Source: a virus. Taken from it: 36,785 bases of DNA. The stretch lies in the IMG/VR virus record IMGVR_UViG_3300046171_000077, positions 1-36,785 of that record; one strand, given 5' to 3'. Under the pieces are notes generated by a model. That model saw nothing but the letters and a program-made list of their open reading frames with translations, had not been told where the DNA came from and made no database searches. This document shows positions 1-36,785 of this stretch, piece after piece (position 1 is the first letter of the stretch; every line of letters begins with the position of its first letter). Both the position numbers and the translations under genes were made by a program.

Positions 1-915
1 GACTTTAGTAATGCCGCTTGGGTTAAAAACGACACGTCAATCACTTCAAGCGCAGCCACGTCACCAGACGGTGCTAACAATGCGAGCCTCCTAACGGTCA
101 ACTCATCGTCGGTTAGTTATTTAAGAGAGTTCTTTACTATTTCAGCCACGGCTCACACGTTTTCGATTTACGCAAAAGCAGGAACTGCGACTGACATTCA
201 ACTTTATGTTGTTGAGCAAGGCATAACAAGCGGGACCGCTGATGTTAACATTGAAACTGGAGAGGTAACAAATGTTACATCAAACTGGAACGGTGGAGTC
301 ACCACTGAAGATGTTGGTGATGGCTGGTTTAGAATCAAAGGAACAAGGAATTTTACAACAAGCGCACCAAACCACGGTATTGGTATCGCAGCAACTGGTC
401 AAAACGGCCTTAACTGTTACATCTGGGGCGCACAAGTCGAGACCGGAAGTGTCGCCACGTCCTACATCCCCACATCAGGTTCTACCGCGCAACGAGCCTC
501 TGACGAGCTTGTGATTTCCGGCAGTGACTTTAGTGACTTCTTTAATGGAAGCGCGGGAACATTTTTCATCCAAGCCCAGAATAGAACTCCCGAACTTAAC
601 GGTGCAGTCTTGATGGGGCAAAATAGCAATAAGTTATTTTTCTACAAATCAAATCCGAACCGTCTCTCTACGTATGATGGAGGTAGCTTTACACATCACG
701 ATGGACTTGTACCTAATCAACTGTTTAACGCTGCCGTGACTTTTAACACGTCAAACCGAAGTTCATCTTTAGACGGGTCGGCTTTAGATACAGACACTAT
801 TAACACACAATGGGCAGGAGCTGACATTTTAAAAATAGGCTTTGGATACTCAAATAATTTTAATGGTCACTATCGCAGAATCCTCTTTTGGCCTTATAAC
901 TCAGACTCTCTATAA
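1..915 (+). CDS. Tail fibre, C-terminal part (LamG-like); continues from the window's right end
   Basis: The frame is open from base 1 to a TAA at 913-915, giving 304 residues with no start of its own. It continues the frame that runs off the right end of the window: ...NLLPYSE joins DFSNAAW... without a base gained or lost. Residues about 1-160 form a beta-sandwich, carbohydrate-binding-like module ending in a QVETGSVATSYIPTSG motif. Residues about 170-304 look like a LamG/ConA-like lectin domain (GSAGTFFIQAQ near its start). Such modules cap phage fibres and are thought to bind surface glycans; this role is inferred from family resemblance. The next fibre gene starts 3 bases after the stop, so the two are probably co-translated. 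Confidence 0.8.
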   Translation, partial: DFSNAAWVKNDTSITSSAATSPDGANNASLLTVNSSSVSYLREFFTISATAHTFSIYAKAGTATDIQLYVVEQGITSGTADVNIETGEVTNVTSNWNGGVTTEDVGDGWFRIKGTRNFTTSAPNHGIGIAATGQNGLNCYIWGAQVETGSVATSYIPTSGSTAQRASDELVISGSDFSDFFNGSAGTFFIQAQNRTPELNGAVLMGQNSNKLFFYKSNPNRLSTYDGGSFTHHDGLVPNQLFNAAVTFNTSNRSSSLDGSALDTDTINTQWAGADILKIGFGYSNNFNGHYRRILFWPYNSDSL

Positions 916-918
916 CAA

Positions 919-3900
919 ATGGCACTCAATCTATCCACACTGACGAACTCAGCGACATCTGGTGACGTTCTAGCAGAAGCCCTGACGACCGCTGACTTCC
1001 TTGAGAACGTCCCAGTGTTACGCAATCTCTCGCGGGGTTCCAACAAAGGCGGCGATGCGAAACAAGGGACAGCCCTAAACCAGCCTAAAGCGTTGCCGCT
1101 GATTGATGGTGATGGTTATCTGTATGTTCCTGATGTTACTGGAAATAGCTCTTCGACTCCTGACGCTTCGACTCTAGACATTACAGGAAGCCTCACAATT
1201 GAGGTAGACTTTAATCTGGCTAACTATGCAACAGGTAGTTCTCAGCAGATATGTTGGAAGTGGGAGACAAACCAGCAATCATATATTTTAAATCTGCAAG
1301 GAAGTGGACGACTAAGGCTTTTTCTTTCATCTTCAGGCTCTAATCAATCCTTCGCTGAATCTGATGTTCTTCCCTTTGCAAACAACACAAGGGGTCAAAT
1401 AAGAATTACTTATAACCGGACAAACGGAGACGTTTTGTTTTACACTTCTACCGACAAAAAACAGACATGGACTCAGCTTGGAACAACACAGACTATTGGA
1501 CCTTTCGATATTTTTAATTCTACTAGCTCTTTGTTTATAGCTAATCGGTCTAATGGCTCTAACCCTTGCCACGGAGCGATTCACAGTGTTCAAATCTACG
1601 ACAGCGTCACGCCGTCCTCAAGCTCACTTAGATTCAACTGCGACTTCACGGCCACCAACGTGCGCCACGGTGACACCAAGTTTAAATGCGACTCCGGCCA
1701 AGTGGTAACAATCAACCAGTCCGGCAACGACCCAGCCACGGTTATCAAGAAGAGTGTCTTGCGGTTCGATGGTGCAAATACGGCACTTGGAGGTTTGTTA
1801 AACCAGACGATTGATAGCGGTTATTTCTTTGCAGCCTTTAGTGTGCTTGGTAATGGTGGTGAGCCATCCGGCAGAATATTTGGTATTAATTCAACTGGTG
1901 CTTTTGATTATAATGGCACAGGATTTCTTGTAAGTGGCCACAACGGAAACACAAATGACATCGACTCATATTATGGAAATGTCGGGTGGAGACCTCAACA
2001 CGACGGGATGTTTGACGATGCCAACGGTGACATATTACATGAGCTAAAATTTCAAGCGGGAGAGCAAAGAAGTCGGGCGAACAACGCTGACGAAAGAAAT
2101 AGGACCGACACGATGGACCAAATAAGCTCAGAGGAGTTTAAAATTGGAGCTTTAACACTTGCTGGACAAGATGCCGTCGCAATCGACCTAGAATACCTCG
2201 CTCTCTTCCCTGCGTCCATCACCGACGCCCAAGCTGACTCAGTTCGTAATTATATTAATAATAGGAACAACGTCTTTAGTCTCATTGACTCACAAGGCTA
2301 CTATTTCTTTGACCCGCAGATTTTCCCTATCGTTGACCCTGCTGATTTTGTTTCTTACTGGAACGGTAATATTGTTGGTTCAGATAATACACTTAACGCT
2401 TCTGTTAGCCAATCTACAGTCAACGACCAGCCGACACGGGATGGCTACAAGGTTACATTTAACGACAACGCTGACCACCTTGTGGTTGCAAGTCCACTGT
2501 CAGGAGGGCAAGCTGGCTGGCAAATCGTAGGCACGTCACTCGGAACCTTTGCGTATCGCGTGGACAACGATGCGGTCACTGAGCTGAATCTTTTGGGTAA
2601 CCTTGGCAACGCATCGTATCGCCAAGCTGGTGATTTGTATGGTATTATCTTGTTGCCGGAAAGTGCAACAGGTGCTGACATTGAATCTGCGAGGAGACTC
2701 TTAATCGACCGAGGTGCGGCAGATGGCGCGACTAATACAGTTGTGGGGCTTTATTGGTATGGTCGAACTGATATTGTTAATTTTAATAATGTTGATTTAA
2801 GTGGGGTAACTCAGGCTAATTACGCATGGAACACCTGCACAGCTCTTACAAGTTTTGATGTTCCTATGCCGTCACTGACTAGCGCAGTTCAAACTTGGAG
2901 AAATTGCTATGCTCTTAAAAGTTTTTCGACCCAACTCCCATCATTAATTTCTGCGTCTGGAGCATGGACTTACAATACGTCACTCAGCGACTTCAGGACA
3001 ACCGACATCAAGAACTGCACCAACTTCATATCCGCATGGCAAGGCTGCTCTGCCCTAACGTCATTTCCGGCGGGCGCAAAGCTCGGCACGGAGGCGAACA
3101 ATGTGAACTTTAGTAACGCATGGGAGCAAAGCGGACTCACTTCATTCAACACTCCGTTGCCTACAGCATCTACCTGTTCCAGCTCGTGGTGGGGCTGCAC
3201 ATCACTTGCAAGTTTTAGCACTCAGCTTCCCGAAGCTATCAATGCAAGGTTCGCATGGTATAATAATACCGCACTTTCAGACTTTAAAACTACCGACATC
3301 AAGAACTGCGCCGACTTCACGTCCGCATGGCAAGGCTGCTCGTCCCTAAGTTCATTTCCGGCGGGCGCAAAGCTCGGCACGGAGGCGAACAATGTGAACT
3401 TTAGTAACGCATGGGAGCAAAGCGGACTCACTTCATTCAACACTCCGTTGCCTACAGCATCTACCTGTTCCAGCTCGTGGTGGGGCTGCACATCACTTGC
3501 AAGTTTTAGCACTCAGCTTCCCGAAGCTATCAATGCAAGGTTCGCATGGTATAATAATACCGCACTTTCAGACTTTAAAACTACCGACATCAAGAACTGC
3601 GCCGACTTCACGTCCGCATGGCAAGGCTGCTCGTCCCTAAGTTCATTTCCGGCGGGCGCAAAGCTCGGCACGGAGGCGAACAATGTGAACTTTACGAGGT
3701 CATGGCAGTCTAGTGGACTTACTTCTTTTAGCACTCCGCTTCCGACAGCGACCAATTTAGCGGCTGCATTTAGGTTTTGTAATCCGCTTGTTAGTTTTAC
3801 GCTAGATGACCTACCTCTTGTTACATCAGTAGCCACGACTTGGCAAAACACTCGTTTCCAATCTTTTTCGACAAAGCTTCCAAAAGTAACAAGCTGTTAC

Positions 3901-4248
3901 GCTGCTTGGTACGGAAATTCCGCGCTTGTTGATTTCTCGGCAGACGTCTTTGCTAACTGGAATCCCTCAAGCATTTCAAGCGGAGTCTTTAACATAGCAT
4001 GGGACGGCTGCACGTCACTCACCGCTCAATCGGTCGAGAACATACTGACAGCCATCGACGCATCAGGCAAATACGCAACATCCGACGGTGACCCTTATCA
4101 AAATACAGTGAATACACAACTCGCTGACGCTGGTATCGACATCGACTACGATGGAACAACTCCCAGTGCCGCGACTGACAGTGCAATAACATCTCTACGA
4201 GGTAAAGGCTGGGTAATTTTTATTAACGGCGTGGAAAGAATACCATAA
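919..4248 (+). CDS. Large tail-fibre/adhesin with LamG-like domain and Trp/Cys solenoid repeats
   Basis: This is a 1109-residue protein starting at the ATG right after the upstream fibre's stop. Residues about 85-240 resemble a LamG/ConA-like fold (LDITGSLTIEVDF near its start). A second beta-rich region covers about 280-450. From about residue 615 to 1040 there are irregular repeats of 22-25 residues with the core [A/T]W..C.[SA]L.SF. They resemble BspA-type leucine-rich repeats, with Trp where those have Met or Phe. Residues 715-908 hold two near-identical 97-residue units (see the DNA repeat at 3061-3694). The C-terminus (LTAQSVENILTAID, then GKGWVIFINGVERIP) resembles the usual cap of such solenoids. 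Position among fibre genes and domain make-up suggest a receptor-binding virion protein. No transmembrane or signal segment is seen. Confidence 0.7.
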   Translation: MALNLSTLTNSATSGDVLAEALTTADFLENVPVLRNLSRGSNKGGDAKQGTALNQPKALPLIDGDGYLYVPDVTGNSSSTPDASTLDITGSLTIEVDFNLANYATGSSQQICWKWETNQQSYILNLQGSGRLRLFLSSSGSNQSFAESDVLPFANNTRGQIRITYNRTNGDVLFYTSTDKKQTWTQLGTTQTIGPFDIFNSTSSLFIANRSNGSNPCHGAIHSVQIYDSVTPSSSSLRFNCDFTATNVRHGDTKFKCDSGQVVTINQSGNDPATVIKKSVLRFDGANTALGGLLNQTIDSGYFFAAFSVLGNGGEPSGRIFGINSTGAFDYNGTGFLVSGHNGNTNDIDSYYGNVGWRPQHDGMFDDANGDILHELKFQAGEQRSRANNADERNRTDTMDQISSEEFKIGALTLAGQDAVAIDLEYLALFPASITDAQADSVRNYINNRNNVFSLIDSQGYYFFDPQIFPIVDPADFVSYWNGNIVGSDNTLNASVSQSTVNDQPTRDGYKVTFNDNADHLVVASPLSGGQAGWQIVGTSLGTFAYRVDNDAVTELNLLGNLGNASYRQAGDLYGIILLPESATGADIESARRLLIDRGAADGATNTVVGLYWYGRTDIVNFNNVDLSGVTQANYAWNTCTALTSFDVPMPSLTSAVQTWRNCYALKSFSTQLPSLISASGAWTYNTSLSDFRTTDIKNCTNFISAWQGCSALTSFPAGAKLGTEANNVNFSNAWEQSGLTSFNTPLPTASTCSSSWWGCTSLASFSTQLPEAINARFAWYNNTALSDFKTTDIKNCADFTSAWQGCSSLSSFPAGAKLGTEANNVNFSNAWEQSGLTSFNTPLPTASTCSSSWWGCTSLASFSTQLPEAINARFAWYNNTALSDFKTTDIKNCADFTSAWQGCSSLSSFPAGAKLGTEANNVNFTRSWQSSGLTSFSTPLPTATNLAAAFRFCNPLVSFTLDDLPLVTSVATTWQNTRFQSFSTKLPKVTSCYAAWYGNSALVDFSADVFANWNPSSISSGVFNIAWDGCTSLTAQSVENILTAIDASGKYATSDGDPYQNTVNTQLADAGIDIDYDGTTPSAATDSAITSLRGKGWVIFINGVERIP
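3061..3694 (+). repeat. Tandem 291-bp direct repeat (two full units plus 52 bp of a third)
   Basis: Unit 1 is 3061-3351, unit 2 is 3352-3642, and a third partial unit runs 3643-3694 before diverging at ACGAGG. By eye the units look identical, while the flanking solenoid repeats are clearly diverged. The period is exactly 97 codons, so the reading frame of the fibre gene is kept. This looks like a recent in-frame duplication of about four solenoid repeats. Confidence 0.9.
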
Positions 4249-4927: not shown

Positions 4928-5103
4928 TGAATAACCATTTAACACACCCGATCACAGGAATGATAGCCAGCTCATGGTCAGCGATCTCGGCCTATTTTGA
5001 CTACTTTGAAATGGCTGTTGGATTTATTTCGGCGGTCATAGCCCTGCTAATCGGAATACTTTCTTTGATAAACCAATGGCGGAGGTTTAAAAAAGGCGAA
5101 TGA
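4927..5103 (+). CDS. Small holin-like membrane protein
   Basis: This 58-residue protein has one strong transmembrane segment at about residues 29-48 (MAVGFISAVIALLIGILSLI), followed by a basic tail (QWRRFKKGE). Its ATG overlaps the preceding stop and its TGA overlaps the next ATG. Size, hydrophobic core, charged C-terminus and position immediately before spanin and endolysin genes fit a holin that permits or times endolysin release through the inner membrane. A second holin candidate lies at 35484, so one of the two may be an antiholin or pinholin partner. The function is inferred, since holins share little sequence. Confidence 0.65.
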   Translation: MNNHLTHPITGMIASSWSAISAYFDYFEMAVGFISAVIALLIGILSLINQWRRFKKGE

Positions 5104-5300
5104 TGAAGCTTTTGACAGCAGCGCTTCAAGCCTATGTCGCTTATACAAACTTAAAACTGAGGAGATATATTGATGACCTGGAAGACGAAATTGATAAGCT
5201 GGCTAGCGTTGGTGATGCTGCTTCCGTCTTGCGGATTGAACGGCTCTCAAAAAGAATTAAACGCGAGCAGCTTCGATCCTCCGGTGATAACTCTGACTGA
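5100..5300 (+). CDS. Inner-membrane spanin-like protein (Rz-like)
   Basis: This 66-residue protein overlaps the holin stop by ATGA. It has a mildly hydrophobic N-terminus (residues 2-18) and then a charged, heptad-like helix with alternating Asp/Glu and Lys/Arg (DDLEDEIDKL, then RIERLSKRIKREQL), as in i-spanins. The main support is the next gene: a lipoprotein is encoded in another frame inside and beyond this gene, which is the classic Rz/Rz1 arrangement. The protein is shorter than lambda Rz and its membrane anchor is weak, so the call rests on context. Confidence 0.6.
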   Translation: MMKLLTAALQAYVAYTNLKLRRYIDDLEDEIDKLASVGDAASVLRIERLSKRIKREQLRSSGDNSD

Positions 5301-5403
5301 TGGCCGGCTTTATACATTTCAAGAGGTTTCGATGATCGGTAGAGGCCAGAAGTATTATAGTCAATATGTCTGGCAACGTGCATTAATTACCGGACAGAAA
5401 TGA
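5173..5403 (+). CDS. Outer-membrane lipoprotein spanin (Rz1-like)
   Basis: This 76-residue protein starts at ATG 5173, 8 bases after a GGAG Shine-Dalgarno core at 5161-5164. An in-frame TTG just upstream at 5170 is less likely. Residues 1-20 are a lipoprotein signal: basic start (TWKTK), hydrophobic stretch, lipobox LPSC with Cys20. The mature part is short and soluble. The gene begins inside the i-spanin-like gene in a different frame and runs 103 bases past it. o-Spanins pair with i-spanins to fuse inner and outer membranes in Gram-negative lysis. Its stop overlaps the endolysin ATG. Confidence 0.75.
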   Translation: MTWKTKLISWLALVMLLPSCGLNGSQKELNASSFDPPVITLTDGRLYTFQEVSMIGRGQKYYSQYVWQRALITGQK

Positions 5404-24323: not shown

Positions 24324-25721
24324 ATGCCACAATTACCAAATTTAACAGGGCCAGCAGTGCCTCCAGAGCAGGCAGCAGGAATCAGAGTTGGAGTGCCTTC
24401 TACTTCTGGTCTGCAAGCAATAGCACAAGCTGTTGGATCGGTAGGCGAGGAAATGCACGCTGCTGAGATGAAAATCTTAGAAAAACAAAACAGCATTGAT
24501 GTTCTTAAAAACGAAAGCGCCTATGGACAGCATATGGCTAATGAACAACAAAAGCTTGATATTAACAATCCTGCTAGCTGGCCTGATCAAGTTAAAAAAG
24601 CATCTTCTGATTTTGTAAATGGCCTTTCCTCTAAAAATTTATCACCAGATGCTTTAGAGTCCCTTAAAATGAGGATTATGAATTACGAGTCTAAAGTCAT
24701 GTTAAACGTGGCTCGTGATGCTCGACTTGCTCAAGTGCAAATAATATCTGGGGAATTTCAAAACCGGCAAAATGTATTTTTTGAGAATAAAGATTTTGCT
24801 GGAGCTAAGGAAAACTTAAAAGAATCAGCTAGTTTGTTAGAAATGCCAAACCATGAAGTTGAAGCTGGCCTTATGAAGATTGAGCAACAAGAAAGAATAG
24901 CAGAATATGAAGATCAAGTAGTTTCTGGTAATTCAGAATATTTTGAAAATGATTTACCTGCATTGTCTAAATCTGACAGAGCTTCTTACAAAAGGAAAGC
25001 GGCAGCGCGTAAAGCTGAATTAGAAGCAAATGATATTGATAGAATATCAGGAGCTATGGCTATAGGCGTAATTAAAACAAAAAACGATTTAGTTAAAAAC
25101 CTAGAAGCTGCTCCAAATGTATCTAGTCAAATGGCTAGGAAGGTTTTATCAAATTGGGAAAACTCTAAGCCACTTAGCTACGAAGAAAAAAGAAAAATAA
25201 CCGATACGTTAAATGATTTACATGATCAGTATTCAAAAGGGAAAATTTCTCGCGACGAATACGGCAGGAAGCATCACAATATAGCTTCTGAAGTTTATGC
25301 TATGGGGAAAAGAGAAGGCGTTGGTGGTTTAAGATCTAGGTTGTATGCTCTTGATCCAACCAAATGGAGTGATGGCAATTTGAAACTTTCAAAAGCTGAA
25401 GACATTGATCAAAAAATTGAAAAAATGGTTTCAGCGTGGGATGGTGCAGGAGGGTTTGGTAAGCCAAAAAGGGGAGAAGACCAACTTAGCCCTAAAAAAG
25501 CTTTAGAAGTGCAAGCTGCTAGAGAGCTTACTGAAATGTCAATGAAGGAGTGGGCAAAGACAGACGAAGGTAGAAATGCTACACCAGATCAAATAAGAAA
25601 AGAGTTTATGAATCAAGCTATTGATGCCATGACGCAAGACATCATAAAAGAAGAATTGGATTACAGTAAAAGATTGGATTCAATTTTAGAAGGAGCAGGA
25701 AACACGGCTTTACCAAAATGA
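24324..25721 (+). CDS. Internal virion/ejection protein (T7 gp15-like)
   Basis: The protein has 465 residues, shorter than T7 gp15 (747). It is almost entirely helical and highly charged, with repeated Glu/Lys/Ala/Gln stretches and no membrane segment. It begins MPQLPNLTGPAVPPEQAAGI. It overlaps the giant next gene by ATGA, so the two are produced together. gp15- and gp16-like proteins form the periplasmic tunnel for DNA entry. The assignment is by position and composition. Confidence 0.7.
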   Translation: MPQLPNLTGPAVPPEQAAGIRVGVPSTSGLQAIAQAVGSVGEEMHAAEMKILEKQNSIDVLKNESAYGQHMANEQQKLDINNPASWPDQVKKASSDFVNGLSSKNLSPDALESLKMRIMNYESKVMLNVARDARLAQVQIISGEFQNRQNVFFENKDFAGAKENLKESASLLEMPNHEVEAGLMKIEQQERIAEYEDQVVSGNSEYFENDLPALSKSDRASYKRKAAARKAELEANDIDRISGAMAIGVIKTKNDLVKNLEAAPNVSSQMARKVLSNWENSKPLSYEEKRKITDTLNDLHDQYSKGKISRDEYGRKHHNIASEVYAMGKREGVGGLRSRLYALDPTKWSDGNLKLSKAEDIDQKIEKMVSAWDGAGGFGKPKRGEDQLSPKKALEVQAARELTEMSMKEWAKTDEGRNATPDQIRKEFMNQAIDAMTQDIIKEELDYSKRLDSILEGAGNTALPK

Positions 25722-28700
25722 TTATTGATTTACCAACTTCGCCTAAAGAAGCTGACAGTTTTTTCAAAAACAAAGACATTGATCCTGTCTTGGCTGACAG
25801 ATCAGCTATGGGATGGGTTGAGCAGTTTAATTTGTTAGACAATCCAGAAGCTCCATTTAACCAAATTGTTGAGGATAAAAAAACAGAGCTTAGAGCTGCT
25901 TTAGGTCTTTATAAAGATTGGAATAAATCAAGAGGTGTTCAGCCGTTTGCATCTCAAAAATATGCAGGCACTGAACGAAGGGAGTTGAATTTTGCTAAAA
26001 ATATACCTAAATGGAATAGGCTTTTTTCTGATGATAGCTTTGAGTCAGAGTTAGAAGAAAGAGGACTTAAAGGTAAGTATGACGAAGTATTAAAGCTAAC
26101 TGGTGAAGGTGGCCAAGAAGCAGTAAGGAATAACTTTAGAAGAAAATTATTTGTTAGTGAAATTGCGGGAGAACCTAATGATGTAAATCAAGCTAGAATA
26201 GCAAAGGGACTTTTAGGTATAGATGACTCAGATGACGACTTTTTTGTATCGTCTGCCAAAAAGTGGGTTACCGGAACAATTAATAATCAAAAAGTTGCCA
26301 CAGACTCTTATGAAATGGGCATTGACGCTTTTATTGCAGATGATGCTGAGTCTTTTAACGAAAAGCTAAAAGAAAGAAGGAGTGTTAGCGCTATTGCTGA
26401 AGAATCATTTATTAAGGGTTACAATAGCTTGATGGACGGCGATGGCAAAGCAATGCTATTCCAAGCCAGCAAAATTGTTGCAAAAGCTAAAGCGGAAGGA
26501 GAAAGAGGTTTATTTGAACAAAAGAAAGATTTACCGGAAGCGTCAATTGGGCTTGTTGCTGAATTCTACGCAAAGCCAGGGGGGCGGGAAAAATTCTTAA
26601 TGATTTTAAATCATAAAATTCAACAAGAGTCATCAAAAACTGACGTTAGCTTTCTTACTAAATTTTTAAAACAGGCGTCTAGGTTTTACGAATCTGAAAT
26701 TGGAGCTGCCGGTAGAAATATTCTAAGAAGAAATATTGAAGAAGGTGATCGATCTTTATTTTTCCCAGACGATCCAGATTCTAAAAATTTTGAAACAGTA
26801 AACGGTAGAAAATTAGCCAAAAAGCTTTCAGAAAAAGAAAAAGCTTACTTCAGAAATGTTCAACAAGTTTCGGCTGACATTTCTAATGTTAAACAAGCTG
26901 TTTCTCAGATTGATGGAGAAAACTGGTTTTCAACTATGATCTTAGACCAGTCTGGCACATTGGCGCAAATGCCTCTTATTATGAATCCTGTTGGTTTATA
27001 TACTAGGTATGACTCTCAACGCCAACTTGATACTGAGGAAATTTTAGCACAAGACCCTGATCTTCCCTATGATGAAGCTAGGGGGATGGCTCGTTTTTCT
27101 GCTGGAATGAATGTTTTTTCAGAAAGATTAGCTACAGGATTTTTTCTTAAAAAGTTTCCAACAATTAAAAATGCTACTTCAAAAATAAAAGGAGCTAGTC
27201 CTGTTTCTATAGCACAAGCTTTCCGAAGAGCCGGAGTAGCAGCAGCAGGCATAACTGGAGCGGAATATTTACAGGAATCTTTTCAAGAGGCTACGCTTCC
27301 TTTAACATTAGATTTATTTAGCTCTCTTAACGAAGAGATGCCTGAAGGGGATTGGGAGCAGTTCAAAATGTGGGATCAGCGCAGATTTTTAGCTGTTTTG
27401 CCCTTGGCTATTCTTGGAGGTGGAGGACAAGCCGCTCGCGATAGGATCTCGACGGCAGAGCTAGGAAAAGTGCTTTTAGCTAAGAACGACGTAATGATAA
27501 GCGGAAGATCTGAAAAGCAAGCTCAAGAAGTTGCAGAGCTGGCAATGACAGATCCAGATGCAGCTTTAGCTCTTTATAAAAAGCAAGGCGAGTCGATGAG
27601 CAGAGAGGAACAAGAGTCTTTTGGCAACGAGGCAATGCGAAATGTTTACTCTGATCAACTTGGAGAAGAGTTTGCGGCTATGCCAATTGCTAGGCAAACT
27701 GAAGACGGAAAGTTTTCATTGGATTTTCAAGATGGAAGAAAAGAAGAATATGATTCTGTAGCCGAAAGAGATCAAGCTTTAGAGAATTGGTCTAAGGAAG
27801 AGTTTTTCCAGACAAGGGAGGCAATGGAGGCTTTTGCTGAAATGGCTAAAGAAAGGGTTGAAGGAGAAGCTGATTTTAAAATTGAGCGTCCAAGAACTTT
27901 CCAAGATCTTGCGGATCAGGGTGTTGAAACGGAAGCGAATCTTAAAAAAGCCATTGGTGTATATTACTCCCAAATGGGAGAAGTCGCTCCAGATAAAATT
28001 GATTTAGCTAATTACATTGAAGAGGGGTCTGTTAGTCTAAAAAGAAATCTATCAGGCTTTGCAGTTAGATTAGCTCAAGGAGCGAGTCCTATTACAGTTG
28101 CTGAAGAATTTTCTGAGGGTTTTATTAGAAGAGCGGTAGGTTTAGGTGAAACAAGTTTTGATGAAGTGAAAGCGCTTCTTGATGAATTTGGTGAAATGTC
28201 CGGCATACAAATGACGGAAGGCTATGACATAGATCCTGAGCGAGCTGTAATTGAAGGCTTTTCTAAGTTTTCAAAAGCTTATGCGCTACAAGGTAAGTAT
28301 GATATGCTTCCTAAAGAGACTCAGTCATGGATGTCTAAAGCATGGGCTGTAATGGAAAACAGCAATAACATTCCTGGCGTTTTAAAAGCATTTTCTGAGT
28401 TATTTTCAAAAATGTTCAAGGCTGTTTATGATGTGGCTAAGGCAATTGAGTTTCACAGAGCAAAGGGCGCTGGAATTGATCCTGACTTAGAAAGCATGGC
28501 GTTACGGGCGCTTGGTTTTGATGAGAAGGGGTATAATGAAAGAATGCAGGAGAGAGCTAATCAGGAAGCGCTTGAGGACACTTTTGGTGACACTATTCAA
28601 GGTGATGATACCTTTTCTGTTGGCCGGTCCGAGGTAACTCCAACAGCCGATACCCAAGTTTTCCCAACTAAGGATGGTGGGGTTGTTGGTCCTGCTTCGT

Positions 28701-31700
28701 TTTCAATCTCGGCTTTCCACGGGACACCTCACAAGGTAGACGAGTTTAGCACTGAGCAGATCGGCACGGGCGAGGGCGCTCAGGCTTACGGGTATGGGCT
28801 TTACTTTGCTCAGAGTGAGGATGTGGCGCAGAGGTATAGGGACGACTTGACCGATACCGGATTTGCGAAAAGAAGGCTCAAAAAAGCGGGGAGCGATATT
28901 AATGTGGCTCTTACTGAGGCAAGGGAAAGAGCTAGCAAATATAGAGAGGGTGGCGCGGATGCTTATGCTAGTGCTATTGAGGAGGACATCAGGTTTCTTG
29001 AGAAATACAAAAAGTCTGGAGAGTGGGCTTCCGGCTCCCTCTACACCGTAGAACTCAACGTCGAGCAGGACGAGCTTCTTGATTGGGATAAGCCGATGAG
29101 TGAGCAACCCAAGGTAGTTCAAGAAAATCTTCGCGAAATGGTAGAAGACTACTCTAAAGATTTCCCTCGCACCGCAGATGAAATCAACGGCGGCGAGATT
29201 TATTCTGAGTTTGTTGACAGAATGAATATACAAGAAGGTCAGGAGGGCATAGCGTCAAAATCTCTTTACGATATTGGCATAAAAGGCATCCGCTACCTTG
29301 ATGGTGCTAGTAGAAACGCAACATGGAAACTATCATCACCCGATACCGTTGTAGCGGGGGATTGGATGGTGAAGGACTCCAGTAAACCTCTTAGCGATGG
29401 TGTTCACTTTAACAACGAAGCCGAAGCTCAAGCGTTCCTTGAAGAAAAAAACCAAGGCACATTTAACTACGTCATTTTTAATGATGCTGATATTACGATC
29501 ACGGAGGAAAACGGCCAAGTTGTTGATACAACCAGCCCATCTTTCTCTATCACGCCAGCGCAGGACGCTGGGAACATTGAAACTTTATTTAAAGATCAAA
29601 TTGACCCTTTAATTTCATACACTTACCCCGTTCTAAAAGGAGATAGCCAAGCGCAAACGACAGCAAAAATTAAGCTTTTGGAAGCCTTGGAAGAGAATGA
29701 TCAACTAAGTAATTACGCTATTGAAACTATTGAACAATACTCAGATGATATTCTTGATGAATTTACGCGAGAGGTAATGGAAGGAAAGGATTTTTCTGAG
29801 ATTGTTGAGGAACAAGAACAAGAAATAAAAGACGATCCTGACTCCTTTAGCGATGACTTCTCAACTGAAAAAAACCTTACAGAATGGCTTCTTAATGAGC
29901 GAGGTGAAGGACAAATAGAAAACTCTGGTTACGCATTTCCTGATGGAACACTATTACATATGTCTCATGATGGGTTTGGAAGAGACGTAGATCATAGAGA
30001 AGTGCATTTCCCAAACAGCCCAGGAGGGACTGAAGGGATGGTTGCAATAATGAATGCTGGCATAATGCGTTTTGATTATTCGGGTGGAGGAGTAACGCTT
30101 AGACATCCTCCGACACGCGCACAGGCCGATATTATTGCCCGAATTGCTAGCCATACAGAGGTTTTTCTTGATGCTGAGCAGGCTTCTTCAGATGGGTATA
30201 ATGAAAAGCGAAGAGCTAGTTTTGAAATTACAGATGAATTTGCTGTAGATGATGTAATTAACAGTGTTAGGGCTTTTTATAGAGGAAGAGATTTTGAAGG
30301 CATAAGCACTTTTGGAATTCAGCCAGTAGAGCAATATGGTGCTATCACTAAGCTGGAGAAAAAAATATTATCAGACAGAGTTAATATTGGAAAAAGGCTT
30401 GAGGCAAAACTTGAGGCCGATGAGAAAAATTGGAACAACGCCAAAAAGTCAGGAAACCAAGAAGAAATCGAAAGAGCTGCCCAGCAAGTTATGCGAAGAA
30501 CTCAGGCGTATATGGAAGTTCTTCCTGATTATCCAATGGGGCCAACAATATCCAAAGCTCAAGATCTTGCGGAAAAGGTTCTAGTTGGATCTATTGAAAT
30601 AACAGAAGGCATTAAGATTGTTGACGAAAATGCCAGATACTCAGGGCTTCCTATCAAGCTTCCATCTTGGCTAAGTAATTTAAAGGTGGCAGATTGGGTC
30701 AAAAGAAACCTGAGAGCTAGAGGTGATTTAACTCCAGACCAATTTAAAATTAAGCTAGCCTCGGAAGCCATTACCTTGACTGAGCTTAAAAGAGCAGAGT
30801 TAATAAATTCTCGTCTTAAAAAAGCGGTCAAAAAGGAAGCTTTAGTAGCTCCTAATTCTGAAGGTGTGTTAATGGAGGACTTTCTCATGAAAAGAGTCCA
30901 GGACGCCCTTGTGATGGATGGCGCGGTAAATGTCACAGAAGCAATCAACAAGCTCCCTAAGAGCCTACAGAGCGTCACTAAAGAGATGCGTGTTCATGTT
31001 GATAGCCTTTCTCGCGAAATGATTAAGAAGGGCATTGCCAAAGGTGATCTTGCTGATGTGTTCCAAAGAAACATTGGCAGTTATCTAAATAGATCTTATC
31101 GCAGATTTACTAGACCAGAAAAGTGGAAGCACGAGGTAAGTGAAGAGTCTAAAAAGAACGCAATGCAATGGCTTGAAGACAACTTGCCAGCCGAAGCATT
31201 TAGCGGAGATGTGTCAAAGGAAGATCAATTAGAAGGTTATGTTGATACACTTTTGACTGATTCAGTTTCTGGGGGCTTTACGGACCAAATGAACTGGCTT
31301 TTAGGCCAGAAGCATATTGGAAACCTTATTGCCAGAAAGAAGGTTCCTATTGAGCTTAGAGAGCTTTGGGGTGAATACAAAAGAGGCGATGAGAACTACA
31401 TGACCTCGGTCCGCAAAATGGCTACTCAGATTGGCAACCACACAATGCTTACTGAGTTTTTAAAGAATGGACTCAATACTGAAATATTTTCTACGCCTAG
31501 GAAGGGCTTTTCTAAGCAAATAAGCTCAAAAGGAAACGAAATGCTGTCTCCTCTAGATGGATACTATGTTTCTGAAGGAATGTCTCAGGCGCTAATTGAT
31601 TTTTCAGAAACAGGAGAAACTACAGCGTGGTGGCTTAAATTATGGTTGAAATTCAACTCAGTAGCAAAAGTCACAAAAACAATATACAACCCTACGACTC

Positions 31701-33277
31701 ACGCTAGAAACTTTTTGTCTAACTTTGTTTATGTGGGAGCTAACGGAAACCTGTTTGAATACTTAAATATTGACACGGTTAAAATGTCTGCGACTATTAA
31801 TTACAAAGAAATATTTAAGAGTTGGGGGACTACAAAGGATATTGAGGATAGGATTCTTCATTACATTAGGCTTGGCATCATGCAGCAAGGTGCTGTATCA
31901 CAAGAATTTAAGGATATTCTTAACGATTTCTCAGCGGGAGATGTAGATATTGATGAATATACTCAAAACAGCGCAAAGAGATTTGCAAAAGCCGGTCTAA
32001 AGAAAATAGAATCTCTTTACCAAGCAGAAGATGATTTTCATAAGATTGTTTCATATGAGGCTGAAAGAGCAAAGTTAGCCAAAGCTAAGCCTGAGTGGAA
32101 ATCTGACAAGTTAGATGCTGAAGCAGCTCAGATAGTTAGGGACACTATGCCTGACTACTCGCAAGTTCCAAATGCAGTTAAAATGCTTAGAAGGGTTCCG
32201 TTTATAGGAACATTTACCTCGTTTACGTCTGAGGTAATCAGGAATAACACTAACATTATCCAAAGAGCTAAGTTTGAGATGTCAGATCCTGAGCTTAGGA
32301 GTATCGGAGCGAAAAGACTTTCGTCATTCGCAATTGCACACAGCATCCCTTTAGCGGGCGCGTATTTTCTCGCCTCATTCTTTGGCGTCGATGACGAAGA
32401 AGATGAAGCGACAAGAGCTATTGCTGCTCCTTGGGATAAATATGCACAGCTTTTATATGTCGGGAGAACTCCTTCTGGAGATCCTCAATATATTAACATT
32501 AGTTACACTGATCCATTTAGCGTATTCAAGACCCCTATTTTTGTAAGTCAACAAGATGGATTTTCGCCTGTTTCTGTTGCTAAGGGCATACTAATGGGTC
32601 TAGAGCCTTTTTACGGAGAAGAAATTGGAACTGCTGCGCTTCTTGATATTAGGGAGAATAAAAACGAAAAAATATTTAATCCTAATTCGGACGCTTGGAC
32701 AATCACTAAAGATATTTCCGAGCATATACTGAAAGCTGTTGAGCCTGGTGTAGTAAGATCAACAAAAAGGATTTACGAAGCTGCAACAGGCAAAGAAACC
32801 GATTCTGGCATGAAGCTAGACACAAGAACAGAAGTCATCGCGGTTCTTTCTGGTCAAAGAATAACCTCTATTGATCGAAAGAAAGCAATTCTTTATAGGA
32901 ACTATGATTTCCAAGATGCTCTTAGGTCGTCTACGTATCGCTTCAATAAAGCTTGGAGAAATAAGAATGTAGATAAAAAAGAGTTATCTAAGGCTTACAA
33001 GCAATACAAAAAAGATAACGAAAAAGCATATTCTGAATTTCAAGATGCTTTACAGGCCGTATCAAGGCTTGGTCTTACTGAGGAGCAAATCCTCCTAGAG
33101 ACAACAAAGGGTAAAGATAATACAGAAACAGCAAAAAGGCTTTTGAATTTGCTTAGAGCGCCAGCCGGTGAAACTCCAATGCCTGACAAAAAGTTTACAA
33201 AATCTCAAATTAAAGAAATTGAAGAAAAAGGCCGAAAAGAGATCTTAGAAGAAGTTGCCCCTGAGCTTTTTGATTAG
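25718..33277 (+). CDS. Giant polyvalent ejection protein (gp16-like position) with ADP-ribosyltransferase-like domain
   Basis: The protein has 2519 residues, nearly twice T7 gp16 (1318). Residues 1-960 are mostly helical. At about 995-1262 lies an ART-PolyVal-like domain: AFHGTPHKVDEF (His1001), YGYGLYFAQSEDVAQRY (Tyr1024), LYTVELNVEQDELLDW, DIGIKGIRYLDGASR and TFNYVIFND at about 1248-1256. At about 1400-1520 is a second conserved-looking module (FPDGTLLHMSHDGFGRDVDH, then GGTEGMVAIMNAGIMRF). From about 1970 the C-terminus resembles large-polyvalent-protein domain LPD38 (NPTTHARNFLSNFVY) with hydrophobic stretches near 2205-2225. Recurrent FS[VI] motifs at 966, 995 and 1276 mark domain edges. 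If carried in the virion, the ART could modify host proteins on entry. That is inference; the catalytic Glu was not firmly located. Confidence 0.85.
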   Translation: MIIDLPTSPKEADSFFKNKDIDPVLADRSAMGWVEQFNLLDNPEAPFNQIVEDKKTELRAALGLYKDWNKSRGVQPFASQKYAGTERRELNFAKNIPKWNRLFSDDSFESELEERGLKGKYDEVLKLTGEGGQEAVRNNFRRKLFVSEIAGEPNDVNQARIAKGLLGIDDSDDDFFVSSAKKWVTGTINNQKVATDSYEMGIDAFIADDAESFNEKLKERRSVSAIAEESFIKGYNSLMDGDGKAMLFQASKIVAKAKAEGERGLFEQKKDLPEASIGLVAEFYAKPGGREKFLMILNHKIQQESSKTDVSFLTKFLKQASRFYESEIGAAGRNILRRNIEEGDRSLFFPDDPDSKNFETVNGRKLAKKLSEKEKAYFRNVQQVSADISNVKQAVSQIDGENWFSTMILDQSGTLAQMPLIMNPVGLYTRYDSQRQLDTEEILAQDPDLPYDEARGMARFSAGMNVFSERLATGFFLKKFPTIKNATSKIKGASPVSIAQAFRRAGVAAAGITGAEYLQESFQEATLPLTLDLFSSLNEEMPEGDWEQFKMWDQRRFLAVLPLAILGGGGQAARDRISTAELGKVLLAKNDVMISGRSEKQAQEVAELAMTDPDAALALYKKQGESMSREEQESFGNEAMRNVYSDQLGEEFAAMPIARQTEDGKFSLDFQDGRKEEYDSVAERDQALENWSKEEFFQTREAMEAFAEMAKERVEGEADFKIERPRTFQDLADQGVETEANLKKAIGVYYSQMGEVAPDKIDLANYIEEGSVSLKRNLSGFAVRLAQGASPITVAEEFSEGFIRRAVGLGETSFDEVKALLDEFGEMSGIQMTEGYDIDPERAVIEGFSKFSKAYALQGKYDMLPKETQSWMSKAWAVMENSNNIPGVLKAFSELFSKMFKAVYDVAKAIEFHRAKGAGIDPDLESMALRALGFDEKGYNERMQERANQEALEDTFGDTIQGDDTFSVGRSEVTPTADTQVFPTKDGGVVGPASFSISAFHGTPHKVDEFSTEQIGTGEGAQAYGYGLYFAQSEDVAQRYRDDLTDTGFAKRRLKKAGSDINVALTEARERASKYREGGADAYASAIEEDIRFLEKYKKSGEWASGSLYTVELNVEQDELLDWDKPMSEQPKVVQENLREMVEDYSKDFPRTADEINGGEIYSEFVDRMNIQEGQEGIASKSLYDIGIKGIRYLDGASRNATWKLSSPDTVVAGDWMVKDSSKPLSDGVHFNNEAEAQAFLEEKNQGTFNYVIFNDADITITEENGQVVDTTSPSFSITPAQDAGNIETLFKDQIDPLISYTYPVLKGDSQAQTTAKIKLLEALEENDQLSNYAIETIEQYSDDILDEFTREVMEGKDFSEIVEEQEQEIKDDPDSFSDDFSTEKNLTEWLLNERGEGQIENSGYAFPDGTLLHMSHDGFGRDVDHREVHFPNSPGGTEGMVAIMNAGIMRFDYSGGGVTLRHPPTRAQADIIARIASHTEVFLDAEQASSDGYNEKRRASFEITDEFAVDDVINSVRAFYRGRDFEGISTFGIQPVEQYGAITKLEKKILSDRVNIGKRLEAKLEADEKNWNNAKKSGNQEEIERAAQQVMRRTQAYMEVLPDYPMGPTISKAQDLAEKVLVGSIEITEGIKIVDENARYSGLPIKLPSWLSNLKVADWVKRNLRARGDLTPDQFKIKLASEAITLTELKRAELINSRLKKAVKKEALVAPNSEGVLMEDFLMKRVQDALVMDGAVNVTEAINKLPKSLQSVTKEMRVHVDSLSREMIKKGIAKGDLADVFQRNIGSYLNRSYRRFTRPEKWKHEVSEESKKNAMQWLEDNLPAEAFSGDVSKEDQLEGYVDTLLTDSVSGGFTDQMNWLLGQKHIGNLIARKKVPIELRELWGEYKRGDENYMTSVRKMATQIGNHTMLTEFLKNGLNTEIFSTPRKGFSKQISSKGNEMLSPLDGYYVSEGMSQALIDFSETGETTAWWLKLWLKFNSVAKVTKTIYNPTTHARNFLSNFVYVGANGNLFEYLNIDTVKMSATINYKEIFKSWGTTKDIEDRILHYIRLGIMQQGAVSQEFKDILNDFSAGDVDIDEYTQNSAKRFAKAGLKKIESLYQAEDDFHKIVSYEAERAKLAKAKPEWKSDKLDAEAAQIVRDTMPDYSQVPNAVKMLRRVPFIGTFTSFTSEVIRNNTNIIQRAKFEMSDPELRSIGAKRLSSFAIAHSIPLAGAYFLASFFGVDDEEDEATRAIAAPWDKYAQLLYVGRTPSGDPQYINISYTDPFSVFKTPIFVSQQDGFSPVSVAKGILMGLEPFYGEEIGTAALLDIRENKNEKIFNPNSDAWTITKDISEHILKAVEPGVVRSTKRIYEAATGKETDSGMKLDTRTEVIAVLSGQRITSIDRKKAILYRNYDFQDALRSSTYRFNKAWRNKNVDKKELSKAYKQYKKDNEKAYSEFQDALQAVSRLGLTEEQILLETTKGKDNTETAKRLLNLLRAPAGETPMPDKKFTKSQIKEIEEKGRKEILEEVAPELFD

Positions 33278-33334: not shown

Positions 33335-35464
33335 ATGCCAGTAACTGAGCAATATACTCCTAGATATTACACTGGAGACGGCGCAAAGCAGATTTTTGAT
33401 GTGCCTGATCTATGGTTTGAGCAATCAGAAGTAAAAGTTGAGGTTGCTGGAGTTCTCACGGGATGGACGAGAGAAGCTGGTGAGGGGGTTAGATTAGCGA
33501 CTGCGCCTGCTTCTGGGGCTTCTGTGGTTATCTATAGAATAACATCACTTACCCAAGATAAGGACTTCCAGACAGCCGGACGTATGCCAGCCACTGAGGT
33601 TGCTGAAGGCTTTGACAGGCAAATCCTTATCAATCAGGAGGTTAAGGATAGATCTACGTTTTTACCTCCAAATACGACTACTCAAAACAAAATTAACACA
33701 ACTGTTGGTTTTGATGCAAATGGAGATCCTGTTTTAAGAACTGCTACCCAACAGTCTACTTATTTAGGTCTTGCTAATTTGAGTCAAATGCAGTCCTATG
33801 CTAACACTGCTGAAGAGCAAGCTGGATATGCAAACCAAGAGCGTGTACTTGCTGAAGCTGCGGCAGCATCGGCTCAATCAGCTACACAAAGCGTAGCGGG
33901 TGCTGTTACCCCTAAAGATTACGGAGCGTTTGGCGATGGAGCTTCACACCCTGCTAGCGGCTCATACTCCACGCTGGCGCTAGCTCAAGCGGTGTATCCG
34001 AGATGTGTAGCTCTTACTGAAGAGCTTGACGGCTTAGCGATCCAGAAGGCTTGTGACACTGGTGGACGGGTCTTTATTGCTGACGGGACTTATAAAATAT
34101 CAACTACTATTGAACTTAAAACTCAAGGGCAAATTATTGAAGGAGAAAGCTCAACAAGCACAATTTTGCAATGGGTTCAAGATGTTAATGGTTTTGAAAT
34201 TGAAGACAATCCTAACGAAAGTAATACAACTAACTTTCCAACAAGTTCTTCCGCAAGCTCTTCTTGGGGTCAGATTAGAACATTGTTGATTTATGGGCCT
34301 GCAAATTCTACTAAAAAAGGCATCACTAACACTGAAGATCCAAATGCAACTCTTTGGGTTGGTGAAGGGTGGAGGTATGACTTTCTTACTATTCTTGGTT
34401 GGCATACGGGGATATATTCATCAAGCGCGGCTAGATTAAATGGTCGTTCAATTAATATTAAAAGTTGCAGCGCAGTTGGATTACACCTTTCTAATGGTAG
34501 TTCTGCCACAAATAACTGTCACGTTTTTTACGGTGTTTCTATGTCGTCTTGTGATATTGGGATTAAATTACAAACTGTTCGATCTGCTTGGATTCAACTT
34601 CAAGACACAACAGGAAACCGTGTTGATGTTAGCGCAAATGCTTCTCTAGCGCACATTGAAGGTGGACAGGCCGAAGCCTACACTGAAAGATTTTTAATTG
34701 CTGAGAATTCTTCCCGCATGACTATTTCTAATGTTAACATTCTTGCTTCGACAACAATTATTCCTATCACTGTAAATGGTAATTCATCTGTTAAGATTGT
34801 AAATTGCCAAAACGTGCAAGCTGGAAACCAGGTGGAGATTGCAGAAATTTTAGATACTAACTCAACAGTATTTGGAACTGCTCATCTTCATCTTTCGGGA
34901 TCAGCGCCTGGCACTTCTCCAACTTCTAGAGTTAGAATATCCCAAGCTGATTCTAATACTGCTAATGATGATTCGGTATTTCTTTGCCCGATACCGTGGA
35001 GACTAGGAACTAGCCTTCTTCCATCAGACTCAAATCATCGCGGGGCTTTGCATTGGCGTGGGGCAGTTCCTTATAATAACCTTAATAACGATGATTTGCA
35101 GGGCGTTATTGAAATGGGAGGAAATTATGTCCGCGCTGACGCATTCAAACGAAATACATTTTCAATTAATATTACATCAGGTGGTTATGGGCCACAGGGA
35201 TTTGAGGATGTTATCTTAATGGATAACACGGGAGTCAGAACCGTATCTTTAAGAGCTACAAATTCAGCTTATTATCGTGCCTCAACAAACATGAGGGTGT
35301 TTACAATTGTAGATTCGGCTGGGACTGCTCAGACTTCACCTATTACCATTAGCGCTAATGGCTCAGATACAATTAATGGGAGTAATAATTATGTCATTAA
35401 CTCTCAATATGGATCAGTCAAAATTGGAACTACTGGAAATGGTAAATGGTTTATCCTCCCTTAA
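33335..35464 (+). CDS. Tailspike: T7-fibre-like N-terminus plus beta-helix (depolymerase candidate)
   Basis: The protein has 709 residues. Residues 1-150 resemble the T7 gp17 N-terminal adaptor (YTGDGAKQIFDVPDLWFEQS, then VVIYRITSLTQDKDF and FDRQILINQEVKDRS). A short coiled-coil, Ala-rich section (about 145-190) follows. At about 192 the classic pectate-lyase-like entry TPKDYGAFGDG starts a beta-helix with GRVFIADGTYKIS. The C-terminus is a beta-rich capping region. Such spikes bind or cut surface polysaccharides. No catalytic residue pair can be named safely. The leader lacks a Shine-Dalgarno. Confidence 0.88.
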   Translation: MPVTEQYTPRYYTGDGAKQIFDVPDLWFEQSEVKVEVAGVLTGWTREAGEGVRLATAPASGASVVIYRITSLTQDKDFQTAGRMPATEVAEGFDRQILINQEVKDRSTFLPPNTTTQNKINTTVGFDANGDPVLRTATQQSTYLGLANLSQMQSYANTAEEQAGYANQERVLAEAAAASAQSATQSVAGAVTPKDYGAFGDGASHPASGSYSTLALAQAVYPRCVALTEELDGLAIQKACDTGGRVFIADGTYKISTTIELKTQGQIIEGESSTSTILQWVQDVNGFEIEDNPNESNTTNFPTSSSASSSWGQIRTLLIYGPANSTKKGITNTEDPNATLWVGEGWRYDFLTILGWHTGIYSSSAARLNGRSINIKSCSAVGLHLSNGSSATNNCHVFYGVSMSSCDIGIKLQTVRSAWIQLQDTTGNRVDVSANASLAHIEGGQAEAYTERFLIAENSSRMTISNVNILASTTIIPITVNGNSSVKIVNCQNVQAGNQVEIAEILDTNSTVFGTAHLHLSGSAPGTSPTSRVRISQADSNTANDDSVFLCPIPWRLGTSLLPSDSNHRGALHWRGAVPYNNLNNDDLQGVIEMGGNYVRADAFKRNTFSINITSGGYGPQGFEDVILMDNTGVRTVSLRATNSAYYRASTNMRVFTIVDSAGTAQTSPITISANGSDTINGSNNYVINSQYGSVKIGTTGNGKWFILP

Positions 35465-35663: not shown

Positions 35664-35915
35664 ATGACAATTACATTCCCAGATACCAATCCTGACATCA
35701 TTAAGATTGAGCGGGGCCGCACATACTATGTGTCTGCTAACGCTGGAGATCTTACGATTAAAAGGAAGGCTTTGAATGGCTCATATATTGAAGTTGAAGG
35801 ATCGCCAGTGACGGACGGTCAGGAAAAGTTCCTGCTTACGTTTTCCTCTGACGACACATTGGAGATTACTCCTTCTGCAACTAATACAGAGCTAGTCTTA
35901 GAAAAGAAAGAATGA
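35664..35915 (+). CDS. Small beta-rich protein (unknown function, possibly virion-associated)
   Basis: The protein has 83 residues made almost entirely of predicted strands (IIKIERGRTYYVSANAGDL, then KFLLTFSSDDTLEITPS) and resembles an Ig- or lectin-like small domain. It is preceded by an A-rich leader. Its stop overlaps the next fibre ATG by 4 bases. Among fibre genes it may decorate the virion, but no family was recognised. Confidence 0.6.
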   Translation: MTITFPDTNPDIIKIERGRTYYVSANAGDLTIKRKALNGSYIEVEGSPVTDGQEKFLLTFSSDDTLEITPSATNTELVLEKKE

Positions 35916-36277
35916 AGCTCCAGAGGCCAGACCCAGGTATTGATGCTGCTAAGTCCGGTCTTCACGGCAAAGCTGGCATTTTTTTTAACGCCGGATTGTT
36001 TTCAAAAGGTGGAGGATTTAATCCATTAGACCTTGATCCTTATTTGCTCTTTGACGCTCGCACGTCAATGATAGGCACGCTGGAGAATCCCACGCTAGAC
36101 CTAGACCCAAGCAAGCAAGACACGCTTGATGTTATTACGGCTACAAGGGCAGGAACCGCCACGTTCACAGATGTCAACGGTAACATAGCGACCGCCAGTG
36201 CTGACACGGTGCGCGTTGACCTACACCAAGGAGCCCGAGTTGACGCCGACGAAGTTTCAGCGGATTGGATATACTGA
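35912..36277 (+). CDS. Tail fibre, N-terminal part before a +1 frameshift
   Basis: 121 residues as read without a frame change, ending in TGA at 36275. The opening (GFNPLDLDPYLLFDART) and the segment DTLDVITATRAGTATFTD, then NIATASADTVRVD, match the front of common phage fibre proteins. Homologues of this type normally go on with QGAELTPTKFQ. Here the phase breaks after GGA GCC at 36230-36235: skipping one C of the CCC run (36234-36236) gives GAELTPTKFQ in the downstream frame, which is open to the window end and into 1-915. The last 13 or so residues (RVDADEVSADWIY) are therefore probably out of frame. Confidence 0.75.
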   Translation: MKLQRPDPGIDAAKSGLHGKAGIFFNAGLFSKGGGFNPLDLDPYLLFDARTSMIGTLENPTLDLDPSKQDTLDVITATRAGTATFTDVNGNIATASADTVRVDLHQGARVDADEVSADWIY

Positions 36278-36785
36278 CTTCTCGCAAGGCTGGGCTGCTC
36301 AAAGCGGCGTGGTCGCACAAGGTGCAGATGATTACCAAGGAAATGCTGTAAGAAGGCTTACTTTTGATGGAGTTACAACAGGTGGAATTTATCAAACAAC
36401 TATTAATACAATCGGCGGTGTAAGTTACACAGGCTCGTTTTATATAAGGAGAATTTCTGGCTCAACCCCACTATACATGCGACACGGTTTTTCCGCGTCA
36501 GGCAATCAAACAGCGATTTCTGTAACTACAGAATGGCAACAGTTTAGTGTTACAATGTTAGGCGCAAGTGGTGGTGGTAATGTTTATTTTGGAATTCTAC
36601 AGTTTGGTGCTGGCAATGATGTTTATGAGATAACACAGCCACAGTTTGAAGAAGGCACAACCGCAAGTTCCTTCGTGGCTAACACCAGTGGAAGTCCAAA
36701 ATTCATCGCTAGTGCAGTATATGGACCTAGGGTGCCGATGATACTGGTGGAGCCGTCGAGTGAAAACTTGCTGCCTTACAGTGAA
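36237..36785 (+). CDS. Tail fibre, middle part in the shifted frame; runs off the window and continues at base 1
   Basis: The frame is open from 36189 to the end. It reads ELTPTKFQRIGYTDFSQGW, then a beta-sandwich module with VSYTGSFYIRR, closing with PQFEEGTTASSFVANTSG, and the NLLPYSE motif at the very end. It continues in phase at base 1 as DFSNAAWVKN. With a +1 shift the full fibre would be about 595 residues. Alternatively a TTG at 36240 with AAGGAG six bases upstream could start a separate protein. The missing C-terminal part is the feature at 1-915. Confidence 0.75.

Follow-up and report, generated by a model that had tools for sequence, protein, structure and literature searches.

How is a phage tail fibre made when its gene, as deposited, lies in two reading frames: by a programmed ribosomal shift, from a second start, or from a single frame that the record fails to preserve? 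The question is raised by the window, i.e. the whole virus record of 36785 bases analysed here, whose genes for a head-tail connector, tail proteins and terminase, together with a T7-type tail fibre N-terminus matched just under the Pfam cut-off, indicate a marine podovirus-like phage.

Layout of the fibre gene

The fibre gene spans 35912..36785 plus 1..915 of the window. Its N-terminal anchor part (35912..36277, plus strand; 121 aa, of which residues 1-110 are conserved in relatives) is read in the zero frame from an ATG at 35912 to a TGA at 36275-36277, some 40 bases past a CCC run (36234-36236). Directly 5' of this run stands a Shine-Dalgarno-like AAGGAG (36228..36233, plus strand), itself within conserved Gln-Gly-Ala coding (CAA GGA GCC), and the conserved continuation GAELTPTKFQ is found one base ahead of the zero frame. 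The next frame, which reads ELTPTKFQRIGYTDFSQGW beyond the run, remains open up to the record end and encodes the downstream part (ELTPTKFQ...LLPYSE; 36237..36785, plus strand), with 93-94% protein identity to the intact fibres of loci L003 and L019. The preliminary description had placed a frame break at the CCC run after AAGGAG, with the N-terminal frame stopping about 40 bases on, and this is indeed what the deposited sequence contains. In tblastn comparisons, residues 1-110 of the N-terminal part and the C-terminal part share one frame in relatives, e.g. L003, as opposed to two frames in the window; the deposited sequence does carry the frame break, which is more than a chance effect.

The record ends adjoin in frame, with LLPYSE on the 36785 side followed by DFSNAAW on the base 1 side, so that the shifted frame extends to 915 (500 aa when counted from a GTG at 36198). 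The remainder of the gene across the ends (1..915, plus strand), in frame with 36785, is a PHROG tail protein. No repeat was found when the two ends of the window were compared; since they abut exactly, in frame and without repeat, the record behaves as a closed circle from which the overlap was trimmed. PHROG tail families match 36240-36785 and 1-912 and, together with homology to intact fibre genes, place the gene among tail fibre genes; sequence searches of Pfam and PDB with the fibre pieces returned no family. Immediately after the fibre gene comes a gene of 1109 aa (919-4248) with a concanavalin-like domain, inside which a tandem repeat of 291 bases (3001-3694; 2.4 copies, 98% alike) is located. 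Elsewhere, a single gene of 2519 aa (25718-33277) gave only a weak, below-cutoff match to an ADP-ribosyltransferase polyvalent protein.

The same site in related phages

Scans with the N-terminal part and the downstream part returned 45 and 5 loci, respectively, and every distinct allele carrying the junction was compared (n=29 besides the window). GGAGCC followed by GAG, i.e. two Cs, is present in 29/29 of these alleles, and in all of them except L008 (28/29) the frame runs uninterrupted through the site, from well upstream as far as a remote stop codon or the DNA end; L008 also has two Cs at the site, and a separate break of its own about 80-90 bases upstream. In a scan of IMG/VR with a consensus pattern, the two-C form was met in 25 stretches and the exact three-C form in 0. 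In L003, the relative closest to the window with 93-94% protein identity, both fibre parts lie in a single frame; across aligned parts, L003 and L019 share 81-94% protein identity with the window. The intact fibre gene BAQ94262.1 from uncultured phage MedDCM-OCT-S45-C18 (Ayaqvirus S45C18) belongs to the same family; like the intact fibres of L003, L012, L019 and L090, it shares with the window the conserved N-terminal part and the TQGAELTPTKFQ junction. Where these intact fibres have a single open frame and two Cs, the window has three Cs and a break.

Regarding the window form as a natural allele, searches of IMG/VR for GTTGACCTACACCAAGGAGCC, for the three-C pattern and for the degenerate peptide KEPELTPTK(F/Y)Q each gave 0 matches, and 0 copies were found in genome contigs, near-identical records being possibly missed by these searches. 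Within the window itself no other copy occurs, even with up to 3 mismatches allowed. The upstream frame +1 (YTKEPELT) was also considered as the true homologous reading and was found in no relative. The preliminary description had named a comparison with related phages as a check and a clean single frame in all of them as the sign of an error; with such a frame in 28/28 alleles, and 25 two-C against 0 three-C stretches, the third of its readings, namely a one-base sequencing or natural indel, is supported. In another locus, L029 (1778-2900), the fibre gene bears a premature in-frame stop (...SGSTA*RAKDD...), after which coding goes on in the same frame.

Programmed shift, second start or phase variation

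A known parallel is prfB, encoding release factor 2, where a Shine-Dalgarno-like sequence likewise stands near a +1 frame change; there, CUU UGA and the C after it work in concert with the Shine-Dalgarno-like AGGGGG and a spacer codon (PMC13245932; see also PMC10885494), whereas the window has no shifty stop, spacer, re-pairing or conservation. The preliminary description had likened the site to this system and proposed a Shine-Dalgarno-assisted programmed +1 shift, which would take place at GCC C GA and yield two fibre forms. The AAGGAG adjoining the CCC run and the end of the frame 40 bases later could be taken in its favour, as could the zero-frame A-site codon, CGA, used at 5.4 per thousand compared with 36.1 for GAG. 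Neither the site nor the two-frame arrangement is conserved, however, since 28/28 other alleles keep a single frame and none has three Cs. Besides, the spacing is wrong: AAGGAG ends at 36233, the first base of the would-be P-site codon GCC (36233-36235), and this overlap makes prfB-like assistance impossible. By the codon-anticodon pairing rule, tRNA-Ala would no longer pair at the first position after slipping from GCC to CCC, and CCC is no in-frame Pro codon; the zero-frame codons GGA GCC CGA GTT include no stop at the site. Downstream, the predicted fold is no better than that of shuffled sequences (z -0.74), giving no sign of a stimulatory structure, and no tRNA able to suppress or shift was found in the window. 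As AAGGAG or GGAG is ordinary Gln-Gly-Ala coding in intact relatives too, a prfB-like programmed shift, unconserved, badly spaced, poor in re-pairing and devoid of stop or special fold, is abandoned here as extremely improbable.

Scarcely better placed is a re-initiation or internal start at the TTG at 36240, driven from AAGGAG and giving a fibre without its N-terminal part; this too is very improbable. The preliminary description had named this TTG as a start that AAGGAG could serve, and the 6-base spacing from 36233 is indeed suitable for a Shine-Dalgarno sequence. Yet GGAG with TTG or CTG 5 bases on, mostly TTG, is ordinary coding in intact relatives, whose genes need no second start, and CAAGGAG itself is found in the intact alleles L075, L087, L090 and L094. 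The product would moreover be made without its conserved N-terminal part, which presumably anchors the fibre to the tail. AAGGAG is also common, with 35 copies in the window, and after 5 of these, all within other genes, a start-like triplet comes next. The suggestion of a phase-variation-like indel finds no support either: the C run counts only three bases, far from a long slippery repeat, and no other run length was observed among relatives.

Probable origin of the break: C runs at an allele junction

The preliminary description had attributed the break to one surplus C within CCC. The net frame change is indeed +1, but three adjacent C runs differ from the closest intact allele, L090, so that the position of any shift becomes ambiguous. 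These runs form a patch (36220..36236, plus strand) where the window, GACCTACACCAAGGAGCCCGAG, has two Cs for one at 36220-36221, two for three at 36226-36227 and three for two at 36234-36236 in comparison with L090, GACTACACCCAAGGAGCCGAG (DYTQGAE); the first two changes offset each other and the third shifts the frame. Once runs are collapsed, both alleles reduce to GACTACACAGAGCGAG and are identical across 36218-36239, which amounts to three run-length changes within 17 bases and zero substitutions. As in run-length errors, relatives are intact and the difference lies in homopolymer lengths only. Viewed alone, the extra C in GGAGCCCGAG resembles one insertion; the nine bases before it, CTACACCAA, nevertheless fit common alleles poorly, 6/9 differing from CAGACACAG. 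Judged from the alignment, the L090 allele accounts for the whole patch, and the window break is more than one clean insertion. In-register two-parent hybrids of known alleles were tried as well and improved little on the fit of L090 by itself (edit distance 3 vs 4).

The surroundings of the patch do not derive from one relative throughout: 36100-36159 matches L003 exactly, 36180-36219 has 0 mismatches to L009, L022 and L081 with L003 not exact there, and 36236-36300 has 1 mismatch to L003. This change of nearest relative at the patch means that two alleles meet there, which fits a mixed-strain consensus and also a recombination joint. In comparison with the genomes of seven relatives (DNA identity of about 84 to 99% across longer aligned stretches), the fibre patch is the single net frame break in aligned coding DNA, the other indels of the window being compensated within a few bases or situated at gene ends. 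Both fibre halves keep their frame relative to relatives, silent codon changes are about as numerous as replacement ones and 0 stops occur in 480 downstream codons, hence no sign of decay.

On these grounds, the gene would be an ordinary single-frame receptor-binding fibre gene whose expression needs no shift, and the break at 36220-36236 would be an error in the metagenome-derived sequence, where C runs may have been miscounted (1 to 2, 3 to 2 and 2 to 3, net +1). Judging by the letters themselves, the break probably goes back to C runs that were counted wrongly, or to a faulty local consensus where strains are mixed in the fibre region; co-occurring strains with different fibre alleles could make the consensus weak in precisely this region. 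Changes confined to C runs look like miscounting and would be hard to obtain via ordinary mutation under selection. Most likely, the underlying phage has an intact frame and the cause of the error is technical. Against an error it can be said that a three-C run is short for a homopolymer error, that the 36.8 kb show a single affected place and that, if the assembly is from Illumina data, actual reads would need to contain the patch. Polished long-read assemblies of marine viruses are known to retain indels, at 22.78 per 100 kb, and also recover host-recognition islands that do not assemble from short reads (PMC6487183). Residual indel errors in such metagenome-assembled viral genomes are likewise small, gene-splitting and situated in microdiverse host-recognition regions (PMC6487183); the window differs in having only one net break in 36.8 kb.

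The main competitor of a sequence error, unlikely and still well ahead of any shift or second start, is a real break, left as small indels by a recent local mutation or by an imprecise recombination of two fibre alleles, in which case the phage, or a minority of its population, would make a truncated 121-aa fibre stub. The allele switch at the patch and the mosaic nature of fibre genes in this phage group are in line with it, as are the broken fibre of L008 in another record and the premature in-frame stop of L029. For such a break, on the other hand, a stretch of 17 bases would have to undergo either three distinct C-run changes or an insertion together with about six substitutions; in-frame alleles exchanged by homologous recombination would keep the frame, and 0 independent copies of the patch were found.

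The second broken record, L008/G007 (37729 bases), belongs to the same phage group, with a portal 99% identical to that of the window, and is also closed, its ends abutting without overlap. Its fibre (5001-5364) carries a different two-base disruption, an extra AC relative to L011, and the genes homologous to the window's 2519-aa and 1109-aa ones (L067/L068) are fragmented, conserved genes being intact. That closed records are broken in their variable genes suggests a weak consensus wherever strains vary; alternatively, function may truly have been lost in such genes. The fibre breaks of the window and of L008 do not coincide, being separated by about 80-90 bases. A wider pattern, where the break is real and the phage group switches its fibres off via frame breaks at allele junctions, seems distinctly improbable; if true, one receptor-binding protein would be heritably lost and the other tail protein (33335-35464) kept.

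The case of the window illustrates how programmed recoding can be wrongly read into a gene that is broken in a metagenome record, and how two cheap tests, i.e. conservation among relatives and homopolymer-collapsed comparison, tell error from recoding. Should the break be real after all, it would be relevant to how marine phages lose and exchange their fibres. Regarding the fibre N-terminal part (36100-36300, loci L002-L050), it is a mosaic of short alleles in varying combinations, such as NGNI/NGLI, ATASAD/ASAPAN and DQTQGAELTP/DHVDGVPM, a pattern which suggests that fibre alleles may be frequently exchanged between marine phages.
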